Positions 27,146 to 31,851 of a stretch of DNA of 64,000 nucleotides are shown piece after piece; positions within the stretch are counted from its first letter, which is position 1, and every line of letters begins with the position of its first letter. The notes under the pieces are model-generated. The model had not been told where the DNA came from, searched no databases, and was given only the letters and a program-made list of their open reading frames with translations. Source of the stretch: Nocardioides marmorisolisilvae (GTDB lineage: Bacteria; Actinomycetota; Actinomycetes; Propionibacteriales; Nocardioidaceae); the NCBI RefSeq assembly GCF_031656915.1, contig NZ_CP134227.1:3472001-3536000 (forward strand). The letters are read 5' to 3'. The position numbers were made by a program, and so were the translations under genes.

Positions 27146-27181
27146 CGCCGAGGACCTGCTCAGGCAGGCAGGTCCTCGGCG
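27146..27181. terminator. Bidirectional terminator hairpin, 14-bp perfect stem
   Basis: CGCCGAGGACCTGC (27146-27159) pairs perfectly with GCAGGTCCTCGGCG (27168-27181) around an 8-nt loop. It ends the hydrolase message on the + strand and the helicase message on the - strand. The helicase stop codon (27160-27162) is in the loop and its last codons form one arm. Confidence 0.8.
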
Positions 27182-28800
27182 TCCACGATCCGATAGGCGT
27201 AGCCCTGCTCGGCAAGGAAGCGCTGCCGGTTCTGGGCGAAGTCGGCGTCCACGGTGTCGCGGGACACGATGGCGTAGAAGCGGGCCGTCCGGCCGTCCCG
27301 TTTGGGTCGCAGCAGCCGTCCCAGCCGCTGGGCCTCCTCCTGTCGGGAGCCGAAGCTGCCGGAGACCTGGATCGCCACCGCGGCCTCGGGCAGGTCGACG
27401 GAGAAGTTCGCGACCTTGCTGACCACCAGGAGGTCGATCTCGCCGTCGCGGAACTGCTGGAACAGCTCCTCACGCTCCCTGACCGGGGTACCGCCCTTGA
27501 TCACCGGAGCCCCCAGGTGGTCGCCGAGCTCGTCGAGCTGGTCGAGGTACTGCCCGATCACCAGGGTCGGCTCGCCACGGTGCTGCTCGACGAGCTGCTC
27601 GGCCACCTTGCTCTTGGCGAACGTGCACGACGCCAGCCGGTAGCGCTCCTCGGGCTCGGCGGTCGCATAGGCGATCCGCTCACCCTCCGGCATGGTGACC
27701 CGCACCTCGACGCAGTCCGCTGGCGCGATCCAGCCCTGGGCCTCGATGTCCTTCCAGGGCGCGTCGTACCGCTTGGGGCCGATCAGGCTGAACACGTCGC
27801 CCTCCCGCCCGTCCTCCCGCACGAGCGTGGCGGTCAGGCCGATCCGTCGACGGGCCTGCAGGTTCGCGGTCATCCGGAAGATGGGCGCGGGCAGCAGGTG
27901 CACCTCGTCGTACACGATCAGGCCCCAGTCCCGCGCGTCGAGCAGTTCGAGGTGGGAGTAGACGCCCTTCCGGCGCGTGGTCAGCACCTGGTAGGTCGCG
28001 ATCGTGACCGGCCGGACCTCCTTGCGGGAGCCGGAGTACTCGCCGATCTCGTCCTCGGTCAGGTTCGTGCGTTGGAGCAGCTCGTGCTTCCACTGCCGGG
28101 CGCTGACGGTGTTGGTGACCAGGATCAGCGTGGTCGCCCTCGCCTGGGCCATCGCCGCGGCGCCCACCAGGGTCTTGCCGGCGCCGCAGGGGAGTACGAC
28201 GACTCCGGACCCGCCGTGCCAGAACGACTCCACGGCCTGGCGTTGGTAGTCGCGCAGCGCCCAGCCGTCCTCGACGAGGTCGATGGCGTGCGCCTCGCCG
28301 TCGACGTACCCGGCGAGGTCCTCGGCCGGCCAGCCGAGCTTGAGCAGCGCCTGCTTGAGGTTGCCGCGCTCGCTGGGGTGCACCGCGACCGCGTCCGGGT
28401 CGATCCTGGCGCCGAGCATCCCGGCGATCTTCTTCGCACGCACCACTTCCTCGAGGACTGCGCGGTCGGTGGTCGACAGCACCAGCCCGTGGACCGGGTG
28501 CTTCTCCAGCCGGAGCCGGCCGTAGCGGGCCATCGTCTCGGCGATGTCGACCAGCAGGGCGTGGGGTACGGCGTACCGGCTGAAGGTCAGCAGCACGTCG
28601 ACCACCTGCTCGGCGTCGTGGCCGGCGGCCCGGGCGTTCCACAGGCCGAGCGGGGTCAACCGATAGGTGTGGATGTGCTCGGGTGACCGCTCGAGCTCGG
28701 CGAACGGCGCGATCGCCTTGCGGCAGGCATCGGCGAGTTCGTGGTCGACCTCGAGCAGCAGCGTCTTGTCCGACTGGACGATCAGGGGGCCGTCGCTCAC
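27160..28800 (-). CDS. xpb: XPB-type DNA repair helicase
   Basis: 546 residues from GTG 28800. The protein begins SDGPLIVQSDKTLLLEVDH as in mycobacterial XPB. An N-terminal XPB damage-recognition region (about 1-180) precedes the SF2 helicase core: PCGAGKT (Walker A), DEVH box, the XPB RED motif in TLVREDGREGD, and motif VI EEAQRLGRLLRPKRDGR. Bacterial XPB is a 3'-5' DNA helicase implicated in nucleotide-excision repair. The longer open frame to 28902 lacks similarity. TACACT stands 6 nt before the GTG (leaderless). Its usual helicase-associated partner lies beyond the DinB gene and repeat array. Confidence 0.95.
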   Translation of the reverse strand: MSDGPLIVQSDKTLLLEVDHELADACRKAIAPFAELERSPEHIHTYRLTPLGLWNARAAGHDAEQVVDVLLTFSRYAVPHALLVDIAETMARYGRLRLEKHPVHGLVLSTTDRAVLEEVVRAKKIAGMLGARIDPDAVAVHPSERGNLKQALLKLGWPAEDLAGYVDGEAHAIDLVEDGWALRDYQRQAVESFWHGGSGVVVLPCGAGKTLVGAAAMAQARATTLILVTNTVSARQWKHELLQRTNLTEDEIGEYSGSRKEVRPVTIATYQVLTTRRKGVYSHLELLDARDWGLIVYDEVHLLPAPIFRMTANLQARRRIGLTATLVREDGREGDVFSLIGPKRYDAPWKDIEAQGWIAPADCVEVRVTMPEGERIAYATAEPEERYRLASCTFAKSKVAEQLVEQHRGEPTLVIGQYLDQLDELGDHLGAPVIKGGTPVREREELFQQFRDGEIDLLVVSKVANFSVDLPEAAVAIQVSGSFGSRQEEAQRLGRLLRPKRDGRTARFYAIVSRDTVDADFAQNRQRFLAEQGYAYRIVDAEDLPA

Positions 28801-28806
28801 TGCTTG

Positions 28807-28812
28807 AGTGTA
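28807..28812 (-). promoter_or_regulatory. -10 box for xpb, leaderless layout
   Basis: TACACT on the minus strand, followed by six bases and the GTG at 28800. This decides the short start over the in-frame ATG further upstream. Confidence 0.55.
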
Positions 28813-28858
28813 GGAGGCGAGCCGAAAGGACTGGACGACGATGGCAGGCTGGGGGTCC

Positions 28859-29395
28859 ATGAGCGGAATGTGGATGCCCTGGGACGACGATCCCCGCAAC
28901 ACCGGACGCCAGCCGGTCGGCGAGCGCGAGGTGCTCTTGGACTATCTCGCGCACTATCGCACGACGTTGGAGCTGAAGTGCGAGGGTCTCGATGCCGAGC
29001 AGCTCGCCCAGCAGTCGGTGCCGCCGTCGAACATGTCCCTGCTCGGCCTGGTCCGGCACATGGCCCGGGTGGAGCACAGCTGGTTCCGCCGGGTGATGGA
29101 GCACCAGCCCGATCTGCCGCTGCTCTATCGCAGCAAGGAGGACCCAGACCTCGACTTCAACGGCGCCGTACCCGACGAGGCCTGTGTCGCCGATGCCTGG
29201 TCGACCTGGCGCGCCGAGGTGGCACACGCCGAGGAGTTCGTCGCCGGCGCGCAGTCGCTCGACATCGAAGGCTCACACCGCGACGGCCCGATCACGCTGC
29301 GCGAGCTGCTGGTGCACATGATCGAGGAGTACGCCCGCCACTGCGGCCACGCCGACCTCCTCCGCGAGTGCATCGACGGCCGCACCGGCCAGTAG
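28859..29395 (+). CDS. DinB/DUF664-family protein
   Basis: 178 residues from ATG 28859. A four-helix DinB-like fold of DUF664 type: VLLDYLAHYRTTLELKCEGLDAEQLAQQSVPPSNMSLLGLVRHMARVEHSWFRRVMEH, with a second His-rich helix LLVHMIEEYARHCGHADLLRECIDG. The three conserved His of the fold, which bind a metal, are visible in RHMARVEH and ARHCGHAD. Some relatives are thiol (mycothiol/bacillithiol) transferases. The actual substrate is unknown. CAGGCT lies 8 nt before the start. It is divergent from xpb and followed by the 21-bp repeat array. Confidence 0.88.
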   Translation: MSGMWMPWDDDPRNTGRQPVGEREVLLDYLAHYRTTLELKCEGLDAEQLAQQSVPPSNMSLLGLVRHMARVEHSWFRRVMEHQPDLPLLYRSKEDPDLDFNGAVPDEACVADAWSTWRAEVAHAEEFVAGAQSLDIEGSHRDGPITLRELLVHMIEEYARHCGHADLLRECIDGRTGQ

Positions 29396-29426
29396 CCGCC
29401 CGCCCCCGCCCCGCCCCGCCCTGCCC

Positions 29427-29531
29427 GCGAGTGGTCCCATATTGCGCGCGAGTGGTCTGTCATTGCGCGCGAGTGGTCCCATATTGCTCGCGAGGTGTCT
29501 GATATGACGCGCGAGTGGTCGCATCTGGCGG
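29427..29531 (+). repeat. Five direct 21-bp repeats (forward half of inverted array)
   Basis: Units begin at 29427, 29448, 29469, 29490 and 29511, an exact 21-bp period. Each starts with the core GCGAGTGGTC (fourth unit GCGAGGTGTC) followed by an 11-base tail, typically ending TATTGC plus GC or TC. The period equals two DNA helical turns, so the cores lie on one face of the helix. There are no unique spacers, which excludes CRISPR. The units stand just after the DinB-like gene. Confidence 0.93.
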
Positions 29532-29540
29532 CGTCAGGCA

Positions 29541-29646
29541 TCGCAATTCCTGGCCACTCGGCGGGCAATATGAGACCACTCGCGCGTCGTACGGGACCAC
29601 TCGCGCGGCATTTTCGACGTCTCGCGAGCAATTTGGGACCACTCGG
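29541..29646 (-). repeat. Five inverted 21-bp repeats (reverse half of array)
   Basis: The same unit on the minus strand at 29626-29646, 29605-29625, 29584-29604, 29563-29583 and 29541-29561. The period is 21, with one extra base between the last two. Cores are CCGAGTGGTC, GCGAGACGTC, GCGAGTGGTC, GCGAGTGGTC and CCGAGTGGCC. Together with the forward half this is a 220-bp imperfect inverted repeat with a 9-base centre (29532-29540). It ends 3 bases before the stop codon of the helicase-associated gene. Confidence 0.93.
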
Positions 29647-29649
29647 CGG

Positions 29650-31851
29650 TCAGGTGATCGCGGCGGTGGTGATCCGATGCAGGGCGAACTCGCGGTCGTC
29701 GTCGGTGCGCTCGTCGTACGCCGAGAGCCGGCCGCCCTCGACCTGTCGGGGGGTGACCAGGCGCTCGGCGACCGTCCCGTCGGATCCCACATAGGCGATC
29801 AGCACGGTGTCGCCGGACTCGACGGCCGTGCGGAGCAGGGACACGACGTCGGCGGGGGAGCTGACCGGCGCCCGGGCCGGGCGGGAGGCGGCGGCGCGGT
29901 CGCCGGCGCGGATGGCCGCGATGACGGCCGCTGTCCGAGCACCGGCTCGCGCCTCCCCCGCGGCGGGCGACCGGCCCCGCGGCACCTTCGCCCGGAAGAC
30001 GTCGGGACGGGCCACCCGCACGGTGCCGTCCGGCGCCTCCACCACGGGGGCCAGACCGAGGTCGCGGATCCGGGGCAGCAGCGTGTCGAGGGGTACGTCG
30101 GAGACCAGCACCGTCGGGGCCAGCCGGCGCAGTCGCAACCCGGCCGCGTCCCGGTGGTGCAGCAGCTCGGTCAGTGCGGTCTCGTCGTCGGAGCGCAGGA
30201 ACGACTCCGCGTGCCCGGCCCGCAGGACGCCGAACCGCCGGGAGACGTCGTCGACGAGATAGCTCAGCGCCTGGGGGACCGGCGTCCGCGAGACCGACCC
30301 GACGAAGTCGTGCACCTCGGTCGCCGACCAGCCGGCATCGAAGGCACGGCGCACCGATCCTGCGGTGAACCGGTAGACCGTCGCGCCGCCCCGTGACTCG
30401 ATGTCGGCCAGCAGCGCCAGCCGGCGAGCCAGCTCCGACTCCAGCGGCCCGGGTGCGACCGCGGTCAGGTCCGCCTGGACGAGCACATGGTCGACCGGCG
30501 CCGGCAACAGCGCGGCAAGCACCTTGGAGGGGTCGCTGCCGGCAAGCAGGATCCGACCCTGGTCGGACATGCCACCGCGGCCGGTGACGCCGAGTACCGC
30601 CGCTTCGGTGACCACCGACTCGATCGCGCTGCGCCGGCTGGCGGGCTGGCGGGGCTGCTGCCAGCGCAGCCGGTCGAGCAGGCTCGGCAGACCGGTGCCG
30701 GCGGCCAGCACGTCGCCGGGCGGCAGGGCCGCGAGCGCAGCCAGGACGGTACGGCGCAGCGTCGGCAGCCAGCTGCGCTCCAGCCCCTCGCCGAGCGCGT
30801 TGACCGGCTTGTCGGCCCGGCGACTGCCCACCAGTGAGACCAGCCGCGGGTTGCCCAGCCAGGCGGTGGCAAGCCGGGTCCACCGTTGGGCGGGCTCGGC
30901 GGCCAGCCACGCGTCGTACCGCTCAGTGGGCAGCCAGGCCGCATCACTGTCGTCGGTCATCCCCACCGCGAGCAGGCCGGCTGCGGCCGCGGTCTCGACG
31001 ACGAGCGCGGTCTCCGCGGGTTCCAGGTGAAGCAGGGTGGCGGTGGCCCGCAGGTCTCGTACGCCGAGGCCGCCACCGCGCAGCGCCCCCGGCGGATGGG
31101 TGCCCCACCGGTCGAGCAGCACCTCGGTGCGGCGGACCACCTCGAAGGCCGCGCCGGCCGCACTCCGGTCGACCAGCGCCGGCTCGGCCCTCGACACCGC
31201 CAGGTCCGGGATCGCGTCCACCGGCTCGCGGGTGGAGCGGCCGCCGCGCTGCACCAGCCGGACCGACCACGGCAGGGTGACGTGCCGGGCGTCCCGCGGC
31301 GCCAGCAGGCCGCGCACCAGGAGTTGCTCGGTCGGCGTGCTCGCGGAGTCCCTGGTCAGCCGGGCCGGTACGGCGTCGACGGTGCCGTCTGCCCCGGTCT
31401 GGTCGAGGTGCTCGACGATCGCGCGAGCCCGGTCGTCGACCTCCGCGAGCAGCTGCGGCACCCGCTCGACAGGTGGGCCCTCCGGGACGGCGAGCAGCTC
31501 GGCCGCCGCGGTCACCGCCCGCAGCCCGTGCCCGTCGTCCCACACCAGCAACCGCGCCCGCAGCACGTCGAGCGCCGCGTCGACGCGGGTCGCATTGACG
31601 ACCCCGGCCAGCTCGGCGACCGGTACCGGCCCAAGGGTGGCCACCGCCTCGAGAACGGTCAGCTGGAACAGGTCCAGGTGGTCCAGGGCACGCTGCACCG
31701 AGGCCCGAGTGGCGGCCCGGGCGGCGAGCTGGGCCGAGTCGTGCGGGGCAGGGACCGTCAGGTCCGGCCGGGCTTCCAGGAGCGCCGCGAGCTGCTCGCC
31801 GGACCAGCTGCGCAGCTGGTCGGCGAGGGTACGGAACGCTCCGGTGGACAT
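29650..31851 (-). CDS. Helicase-associated (XPB/Ssl2-like) domain protein
   Basis: 733 residues from ATG 31851. The N-terminal third is helical, with winged-helix-like patterns (ALDHLDLFQLTVLEAVATLGPVPVAELAGVV). The C-terminal part (VLVQADLTAVAPGPLESELARRLALLADIESRGGATVYRFTAGSVRRAFDAGWSATEVHDFV) matches the Helicase_C_3/XPB-Ssl2 helicase-associated domain. A final WYL-like region ends DDREFALHRITTA. No helicase motor motifs are present. In mycobacteria the homologue is the neighbour of xpb, suggesting a shared repair role. TAGAAT stands 7 nt before the ATG. The ORF ends 3 bases from the repeat array. Confidence 0.88.
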   Translation of the reverse strand: MSTGAFRTLADQLRSWSGEQLAALLEARPDLTVPAPHDSAQLAARAATRASVQRALDHLDLFQLTVLEAVATLGPVPVAELAGVVNATRVDAALDVLRARLLVWDDGHGLRAVTAAAELLAVPEGPPVERVPQLLAEVDDRARAIVEHLDQTGADGTVDAVPARLTRDSASTPTEQLLVRGLLAPRDARHVTLPWSVRLVQRGGRSTREPVDAIPDLAVSRAEPALVDRSAAGAAFEVVRRTEVLLDRWGTHPPGALRGGGLGVRDLRATATLLHLEPAETALVVETAAAAGLLAVGMTDDSDAAWLPTERYDAWLAAEPAQRWTRLATAWLGNPRLVSLVGSRRADKPVNALGEGLERSWLPTLRRTVLAALAALPPGDVLAAGTGLPSLLDRLRWQQPRQPASRRSAIESVVTEAAVLGVTGRGGMSDQGRILLAGSDPSKVLAALLPAPVDHVLVQADLTAVAPGPLESELARRLALLADIESRGGATVYRFTAGSVRRAFDAGWSATEVHDFVGSVSRTPVPQALSYLVDDVSRRFGVLRAGHAESFLRSDDETALTELLHHRDAAGLRLRRLAPTVLVSDVPLDTLLPRIRDLGLAPVVEAPDGTVRVARPDVFRAKVPRGRSPAAGEARAGARTAAVIAAIRAGDRAAASRPARAPVSSPADVVSLLRTAVESGDTVLIAYVGSDGTVAERLVTPRQVEGGRLSAYDERTDDDREFALHRITTAAIT

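Follow-up and report, generated by a model that had tools for sequence, protein, structure and literature searches.

A phased, inverted array of 21-bp units in Nocardioides marmorisolisilvae, probably a gene-less copy of a repeat family linked to AbiEi-nuclease genes

Why does an array of short repeats, one half forward and the other inverted, stand between the stop codons of two convergent genes? We addressed this question for a locus of Nocardioides marmorisolisilvae (RefSeq assembly GCF_031656915.1, contig NZ_CP134227.1), using a window of 64,000 nucleotides, by which we mean the whole stretch of DNA from position 3,472,001 to 3,536,000 of the contig. The array consists of ten 21-bp units at window positions 29428 to 29645, five forward and then five inverted, in agreement with the original prediction, whose starts lay one base earlier because they included a leading G. 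On the plus strand, the cores start at 29428, 29449, 29470, 29491 and 29512. Forward units 1 (29428 to 29448, core CGAGTGGTC plus tail), 2 (29449 to 29469) and 3 (29470 to 29490) share the core CGAGTGGTC, unit 4 (29491 to 29511) has the variant CGAGGTGTC, and the innermost unit 5 (29512 to 29532) has CGAGTGGTC again. A centre without strand (29533 to 29539) separates the two arms, and this is the spot where related arrays hold an AbiEi-nuclease gene. On the minus strand, with core positions 29552, 29574, 29595, 29616 and 29637, follow the innermost unit 5 (29540 to 29560, variant CGAGTGGCC), units 4 (29562 to 29582) and 3 (29583 to 29603), both with CGAGTGGTC, unit 2 (29604 to 29624, variant CGAGACGTC) and the outermost unit 1 (29625 to 29645, CGAGTGGTC). 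The step is 21 bp everywhere except for one of 22 bp on the inverted side, from 29552 to 29574, which is the 1-nt slip already described. The same 10-base core had been ascribed to every unit; the exact 10-mer GCGAGTGGTC is found in six of the ten, while the 9-mer CGAGTGGTC forms the core of seven. By itself, the 10-mer is no commoner in the window than expected (13 matches at up to one mismatch vs 15.2). The spaced pair of 9-mer, 12 bases and 9-mer (at most two mismatches) occurs seven times in the window and not once in 60 first-order Markov shuffles.

Both neighbouring genes point towards the array. The upstream gene (28868 to 29395, plus strand), with its stop 31 bp before the array, had been called DinB-like, but its best Pfam score assigns it to the mycothiol-S-transferase (MST) family (PF04978, 156.7 bits vs 38.8 for DinB_2). 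Downstream, on the minus strand, lies the helicase-associated gene (29650 to 31851), coding for a Helicase_C_3 protein with a sub-threshold WYL match; its stop codon is 3 bp past the array, as had been predicted for an array end at 29646. Among 22 relatives, 11 have the helicase-associated gene followed directly by what reads as an XPB-type helicase gene, with neither the MST gene nor a 21-bp array between them. The window has both the MST gene and the array between the helicase-associated gene and XPB (27160 to 28860), and the array alone is not separable from the MST gene. No clean empty site was seen for an array by itself, and insertion is therefore presumptive.

A search of the complete window genome (G000, 4,228,226 bp) for the core at 21-bp spacing, a check suggested by the original prediction, gave 18+14 exact matches to the relaxed pair pattern, compared with 0+0 for the reversed-pattern control. 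Together with looser matches, these form at least 13 intergenic loci, including the window array, and many consist of a forward block followed by an inverted one, which bears out the suspicion of a REP-like dispersed family. The number 13 is a minimum that leaves out a menD-like locus at 2488478. Depending on the filter, we counted 75 units (about ten of them judged coding false matches), 55 with stricter settings, or 62 with a third filter. The unit tails, which had been described as variable, share a consensus near CCAnATTGCGCG and are not free. In 11 of the 13, no more than 35 bp separate the start of the array from a stop codon, a raw count that has no baseline for distance. Five loci lie in convergent gaps, seven in tandem gaps and one in a divergent gap, according to a simple codon-usage caller whose gene starts are approximate. 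Minimal elements, in which a single forward core and a single inverted core, both exact, are separated by 5-35 bp, were absent from the window genome. With at most one mismatch, the 21-bp pair occurred 16+13 times in the window genome vs 0-3 times in each of 57 other genomes, and under a looser pattern the other 23 genomes of the genus gave 0-4 matches apiece. The menD-like locus (C1:2488478-2488530; L269:3479-3531) has three 21-bp units in frame inside the gene, encoding ETSQIVAETSHIAAESS, and two of the three have the core CGAGACGTC. The names menD, rbpA, pgl, uppS, fur, relA, serA, coaX and pepO are what we take these genes to be from the starts of their proteins.

The 23 other genus genomes have 0-3 of the 21-bp pairs each, but at least seven of them carry arrays with another core, CGACCGGGC, at 32-bp spacing. 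Pairs of CGACCGGGC with gaps of 10-30 were sought in 24 genus genomes and numbered 37 in G003, 36 in G009, 28 in G012, 20 in G010, 13 in G020, 10 in G006, 4 in G007 and 0 in the window genome. Controls gave 0-4 per genome; since the four pairs of G007 do not exceed its control of 4, its arrays were deduced from fetched stretches, which show 32-bp units in G007 as well as in G020. The spacing was exactly 32 bp for 36 of 36 pairs in G009, 35 of 37 in G003 (where four rows are probably duplicated at contig ends), 14 of 20 in G010, 8 of 10 in G006 and, among the matches listed, 27 of 27 in G012. G003 is a single contig, and one array stretch recurs close to its two ends (C1:192-328 and 4052017-4052153), which suggests an untrimmed circular overlap. 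The spacing therefore amounts to two helical turns in the window genome (21 bp) and to two or three in its relatives (22 or 31-33 bp, see below), and because 32 bp is not a multiple of a codon, it follows helical turns and not codons. The prediction that the cores are helically phased is supported by these related arrays.

Of 40 congener blocks, 33 start no further than 35 bp from a stop codon (again a raw count with no baseline for distance), and 25 are in convergent gaps; when 400 kb of G007 were sampled as a baseline, 44 of 275 pairs of neighbouring genes were convergent. By eye, where the orthologue of the helicase-associated gene ends in G007 and G012, there are inverted repeats with a CGACCGGGC-like core. 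Array position is kept at shared loci in G003, G009 and G010, matched by the start of the neighbouring proteins. The two arms carried opposite majority core letters in all seven elements of G003, in 7 of 12 of G009 and in 15 of 27 overall; this polarity gave a permutation p of.03 for 21 elements of G003, G009 and G010 and is weak overall. Just past the helicase-associated stop in three congeners (L149, L150, L151), we saw by eye a perfect hairpin followed by a word X, of which two copies (X') come in inverted orientation, with X differing among the three and the layout kept. Copies of a CCCTGAGCCTGTCGAAGGG-like repeat were also noted at L272 and at L045:11571-11723, the latter being a 24-bp tandem array of GAAGGGCGCTGCCCTGAGCCTGTC.

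A link to a nuclease gene, which the original prediction had not foreseen, emerged from these relatives. A gene for a protein of about 320 amino acids lies exactly between the two blocks in G003 (six units forward, the gene, five inverted), G009 (where the gene is broken) and G012. The window genome has a copy of the gene at uppS-fur, enclosed by 32-bp CGAGGCGGC units. The AbiEi_4 profile gave 32 matches in five genomes, of which 30 genes were fetched; 16 of these had inverted repeats between their 300-bp flanks scoring at least 16.5, a value that marks the 99th percentile for 198 genes of G007 taken as controls. In the window genome, 21-bp CGAGTGGTC arrays surround none of the seven AbiEi_4 genes found, and the cognate enzyme there is therefore deduced from relatives, or has been lost.

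Homologues of the G003 protein (E ≤1e-20) are present in 89 of 120 genomes of the family, covering 23 of 26 genera. We fetched 30 of their loci, one per genome, picked by similarity to the array-enclosed query; three loci are common to this set and the 30 AbiEi_4 genes. The inverted-repeat score around the homologues reached 16.5 at 25 of 30 loci and exceeded the control maximum of 19.5 at 24, strong inverted repeats being absent around the other five. A mismatched-flank control, combining the upstream flank of one species with the downstream flank of another, gave 31 at 95%, 81 at 99% and a maximum of 114, and many true flank pairs score below its upper range, but the likeness between the arrays of different species means that this control is not a true null. 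For flank periodicity, 28 of the 30 loci reached the 95th percentile (15.8) and 14 the 99th (42.2) of a control made from G007 DNA, which carries its own arrays. The spacing at these 28 loci was 32 (19 loci), 31 (3), 33 (3), 22 (2) or 29 (1), so that 27 of the 30 loci, including all 14 strongest, have a spacing of 22 or 31-33.

The same locus may carry the gene or lack it. One such place is the gap between a relA-like gene and the gene convergent with it: the element there is gene-bearing in G098 (L318), the arrays of G003 (L274) and G009 (L230) are gene-less, and both neighbours match. Gene-bearing and gene-less alleles are less certain at a serA-like gene (G110 vs G003 and G012) and at a CoA-transferase-like gene (G087 vs G009), each having one matching neighbour. 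At 15 of the 30 loci, the nuclease gene lies between rbpA-like and pgl-like genes (one assigned by the rbpA side only, two flipped). Several copies have a stop inside the match. The nuclease gene had no match among phages and three weak, partial matches among plasmids.

The encoded protein matches the Pfam family AbiEi_4 at its N-terminus, and the AbiEi models of PADLOC extend to about residue 190. At the C-terminus, Pfam gave REase_MTES_1575 or DUF559 in five of seven proteins, mostly below the cut-off. NCBIfam offered no model for the six proteins tested, and a sequence search against solved structures gave no match (best E 0.96). Seven residues were invariant in all 32 aligned homologues (E211, D243, E254, G257, H261, D270 and R273, G003 numbering), and D256 was present in 29 of the 32. 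This pattern resembles what we take to be the EDxHD/Vsr-type endonuclease signature. Judged by these profiles and residues, the protein combines an AbiEi/winged-helix-like N-terminus with a nuclease-like C-terminus and is a probable DNA-cutting enzyme.

We then compared the unit tails, defined as the 13 bases after the core; the congener tail tables omit units without CGGGC. Tail identity between gene-flanking and dispersed units, as against that among dispersed units, was.65 and.65 in G003 (11 flanking units),.64 and.60 in G009 (5),.86 and.81 in G012 (6) and.58 and.59 in G006 (2). Gene-flanking and scattered units thus match within species in four of five species, the exception being G010, where gene-flanking units match G003 (.57) better than their own dispersed units (.51). 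Between species, tail identity was mostly.22-.52, with higher values for G012 and G020 (about.80), G009 and G006 (up to.59) and G003 and G010 (up to.57). At six loci taken as shared by G003 and G009 from their same neighbouring proteins, the units were no more alike than elsewhere (.334 vs.340), which means that the positions were kept through a complete turnover of the units' sequence. Units of the same arm and locus were closer to each other than to other units (.608 vs.545 in the window genome,.744 vs.565 in G003). As read from these identities, the arrays within one species evolve together.

The tails of the window family were also scored against gene-flanking units of other genomes. They matched best the 32-bp units at uppS-fur of the congener G013 (CGAGGCGTC GCAGATTGCGG...), with a score of 5.22, compared with a mean of 4.23 within the window family itself, 3.69 for the next-best gene-flanking match and 3.00 for shuffled tails; ungapped identity was.63 with the G013 units vs.56 within the family. 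The CGAGGCGGC tails at uppS-fur of the window genome itself were near background relative to the dispersed family (3.44 vs 3.00; identity.36).

The nearest case of 21-bp GAGTGGTC arrays beside the nuclease gene is Agrococcus terreus, an actinomycete of the Micrococcales (the genome of locus L109). The 21-bp pair occurs there at eight places vs one in the control, seven of the eight being outside called genes, and in the places that were read, units of the GAGTGGTC type point both ways. At L343, a 290-aa AbiEi-nuclease homologue has GAGTGGTC-type units upstream and downstream, with an inverted-repeat score of 29.5; the units are diverged, with a periodicity of 9-11 that is under the control. 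This protein is matched by 32 of 32 relatives and reaches 34.7 bits with REase_MTES_1575, just under the cut-off; the Agrococcus fragment tested matched the nuclease models alone and no AbiEi model.

An exact-core search of 84,980 species genomes returned 56 stretches, and viral contigs gave seven. Ten of these 63 loci were read. Forward-plus-inverted arrays with apparent stop codons on both sides were seen in N. luteus (L122, L139) and arrays at 21-bp spacing in Aeromicrobium, Fictibacillus, a Bacteroidetes bin and UBP14, and many of the others look lone or coding. A whole-genome recount covered 11 of the 12 array-bearing species, leaving out N. luteus. Counts were above control in the Bacteroidetes bin (4+9 vs 2+0), Agrococcus terreus (2+6 vs 0+1), Fictibacillus (0+11 vs 0+0, on two contigs), G148 (1+4 vs 0+0) and G144 (1+3 vs 0+0); G147 had 0+3 and G149 0+1, both vs 0+0, and G141, G142, G150 and G151 were about at control level. 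Cores of the GACCACTCG type were noted in L116 (Fictibacillus), L108/G146 (the Bacteroidetes bin), G148 and G144, some of them in other phyla. The 63 loci, viral and genomic, held no AbiEi-like gene, nor did three further loci of G144 and G146, and the array had no match among plasmids and phages.

We propose that the window array is probably a gene-less copy of the dispersed repeat family of a repeat-nuclease system. Its unit has a core of roughly the CGASNSGKC type and a tail common within a species; in relatives, the gene lies between the forward and inverted blocks, in Agrococcus between two such elements, and one locus may be gene-bearing or gene-less in different genera. The N-terminal AbiEi/winged-helix-like domain would bind the units along a single face of the helix, and the C-terminal domain would cut in or near the array. 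Repair from other arrays could then expand and homogenise the units and seed new copies, and might at times bring the gene to the centre of an array or remove it from there. Array copies would survive mainly just past stop codons, where they do least harm, such that position would reflect tolerance. In the window genome, these steps of binding, cutting and spread would depend on an enzyme whose existence we infer. More tentatively, and with a good deal of reservation, we suggest a general class in which vertically kept nucleases with an AbiEi-type wHTH and an EDxHD domain bind phased arrays, cut them, and spread and homogenise species-specific arrays behind stop codons, the gene homing into and out of the centre; such a class would be built on another enzyme than that of REP/RAYT. 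To our knowledge, REP/RAYT is the main example of tiny repeats that are maintained as a population in a bacterial genome along with a domesticated nuclease. If the proposal is true, a second, unrelated system of the same logic would exist in a whole bacterial family and in Agrococcus, and such populations would arise repeatedly. Genes of the AbiEi/DUF559 type, which are abundant and at present carry toxin-antitoxin names, would also gain a function, and natural arrays whose core and spacing (two vs three turns) have changed between congeners would make the binding rules directly testable.

Other explanations account for part of these data. Helical phasing, the conservation of array positions at shared loci in G003, G009 and G010, the rbpA-pgl neighbourhood at half of the 30 loci, and the near absence of phage and plasmid matches would all be expected if the arrays were functional, operator-like sites that no nuclease copies, and AbiEi or another protein bound them so as to shape the chromosome or shield neighbouring genes. 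We regard this as unlikely, as the nuclease-like residues are invariant in 32 of 32 homologues, several gene copies have a stop inside the match, and the complete turnover of units at shared loci is easier to obtain with active copying. Plain satellite DNA, which needs no enzyme of its own and arises when tandem duplication is joined by ordinary gene conversion, would predict through local duplication the greater likeness of units of the same arm and locus; the AbiEi genes would then simply have landed in the same spots. This reading is highly improbable given a gene between the blocks at most of the 30 loci in many genera, another beside 21-bp arrays in Agrococcus, and a tail common to gene-flanking and dispersed units in four of five species. 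As 21 is divisible by three, and an open frame (REWSHIA-like) runs through the array, a coding heptapeptide repeat was considered too, all the more with three units in frame in the menD-like gene. It has practically no chance of being correct: relatives use 32, 31 and 22 bp, single-base slips occur, the units sit between the stop codons of called genes, and the 32-bp units of relatives refute it.

The original prediction had also offered a bidirectional terminator or a structured RNA, and the ability of the halves to form a large hairpin. The arms, by folding, would stop transcription or protect the 3' ends of the convergent genes. Folding is indeed predicted to be strong (-150.6 kcal/mol, z -12.3, equalled by 0 of 200 shuffles), but any inverted array folds well, and covariation lends a hairpin role no support: the tail identity of opposite arms at one locus was.522 in the window genome,.560 in G003,.517 in G009 and.667 in G012, compared with.545,.565,.523 and.649 between different loci. 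Arms of the same locus are thus no more alike than arms of different loci, and there is no sign of arm-to-arm compensation; the opposite core letters on the arms of G003 (7/7), G009 (7/12) and the whole set (15/27) would spoil pairing as well. The closeness to stop codons (11/13 and 33/40, without baseline) and the excess of convergent gaps (25/40 vs 44/275) fit termination, to which lone one-direction blocks and a divergent gap are opposed, and a scan of 29300-29760 for intrinsic terminators (GC hairpin and U tract) found none (0.1 in shuffles). Rfam returned nothing above its thresholds for the array (best mir-H11, E 0.55, 19.9 of 70 bits, below the gathering score), and a promoter scan gave nothing. 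We therefore consider a terminator or RNA hairpin quite improbable.

The repeat-nuclease system that we favour can be set beside several known ones. A REP is a 20-50-nt palindrome preceded by a GTAG-type tetranucleotide, according to PMC8266576. REP/REPIN-RAYT systems share with ours dispersed intergenic repeats, two inverted blocks, repeats presumed to be non-autonomous, and a cognate nuclease-type gene that largely stays at one locus, without phage matches (PMC8049555, PMC8266576). With at least 13 intergenic loci and 55-62 units, the window genome also has a dispersed population, smaller than that of classical REPs. RAYT genes, too, are flanked by repeats. Unlike REPs, the window unit is a 21-bp direct repeat with the core CGAGTGGTC and no short GTAG hairpin; the units are tandem and helically phased, and the enzyme is AbiEi-like with a restriction/Vsr-like domain. 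The Y1/HuH transposase (PF01797) had no match in the window genome, with control matches in 5 of 14 known genomes. The system works like a REPtron but is not a member of that group.

The EDxHD homing endonuclease family, which includes I-Bth0305I, is described in PMC3943268. Our protein appears similar in its residues (E..D..E.D..H..D) and in having a putative DNA-binding region joined to a nuclease; its gene lies inside repeated, target-like sequence, with gene-bearing and gene-less alleles and apparently broken copies. This family is presumably linked to Vsr. In contrast to I-Bth0305I-type enzymes, the AbiEi-nuclease has no phage match, is intergenic, and is flanked by inverted multi-unit arrays that are scattered elsewhere too. 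With AbiEi of the type IV toxin-antitoxin system AbiE, the protein shares its N-terminal half, which matches the PADLOC AbiEi models and Pfam AbiEi_4, but here this part is fused to a nuclease-like domain, and the neighbours of the 30 loci, by protein starts, are mostly recognised as housekeeping genes. MITE and foldback elements are similarly short, gene-less, inverted and multi-copy, and foldback elements end in tandem repeats; the window array has inverted blocks, and no target duplication was seen. CRISPR and TIGR arrays have constant repeats, unique spacers and an RNA-guided effector gene nearby. Both were rejected, TIGR-Tas on anatomy, and the earlier view that the array is not CRISPR is borne out: within a species the tails follow one consensus (across loci, their mean identity is.52-.65), the blocks are inverted, and the neighbours are the MST and helicase-associated genes.

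A literature search, which covered few subscription journals and only titles and the starts of abstracts, retrieved no account of AbiEi/DUF559 genes with repeat arrays. Other AbiEi_4 lineages have the same hairpin, or inverted repeats without tandem units, on both sides of the gene, as seen at L254/L252, L264/L256, L245/L247, L255 and L262/L265, with about 40 bp of perfect repeat at L262. The enclosure of AbiEi_4 genes may extend beyond the array type.
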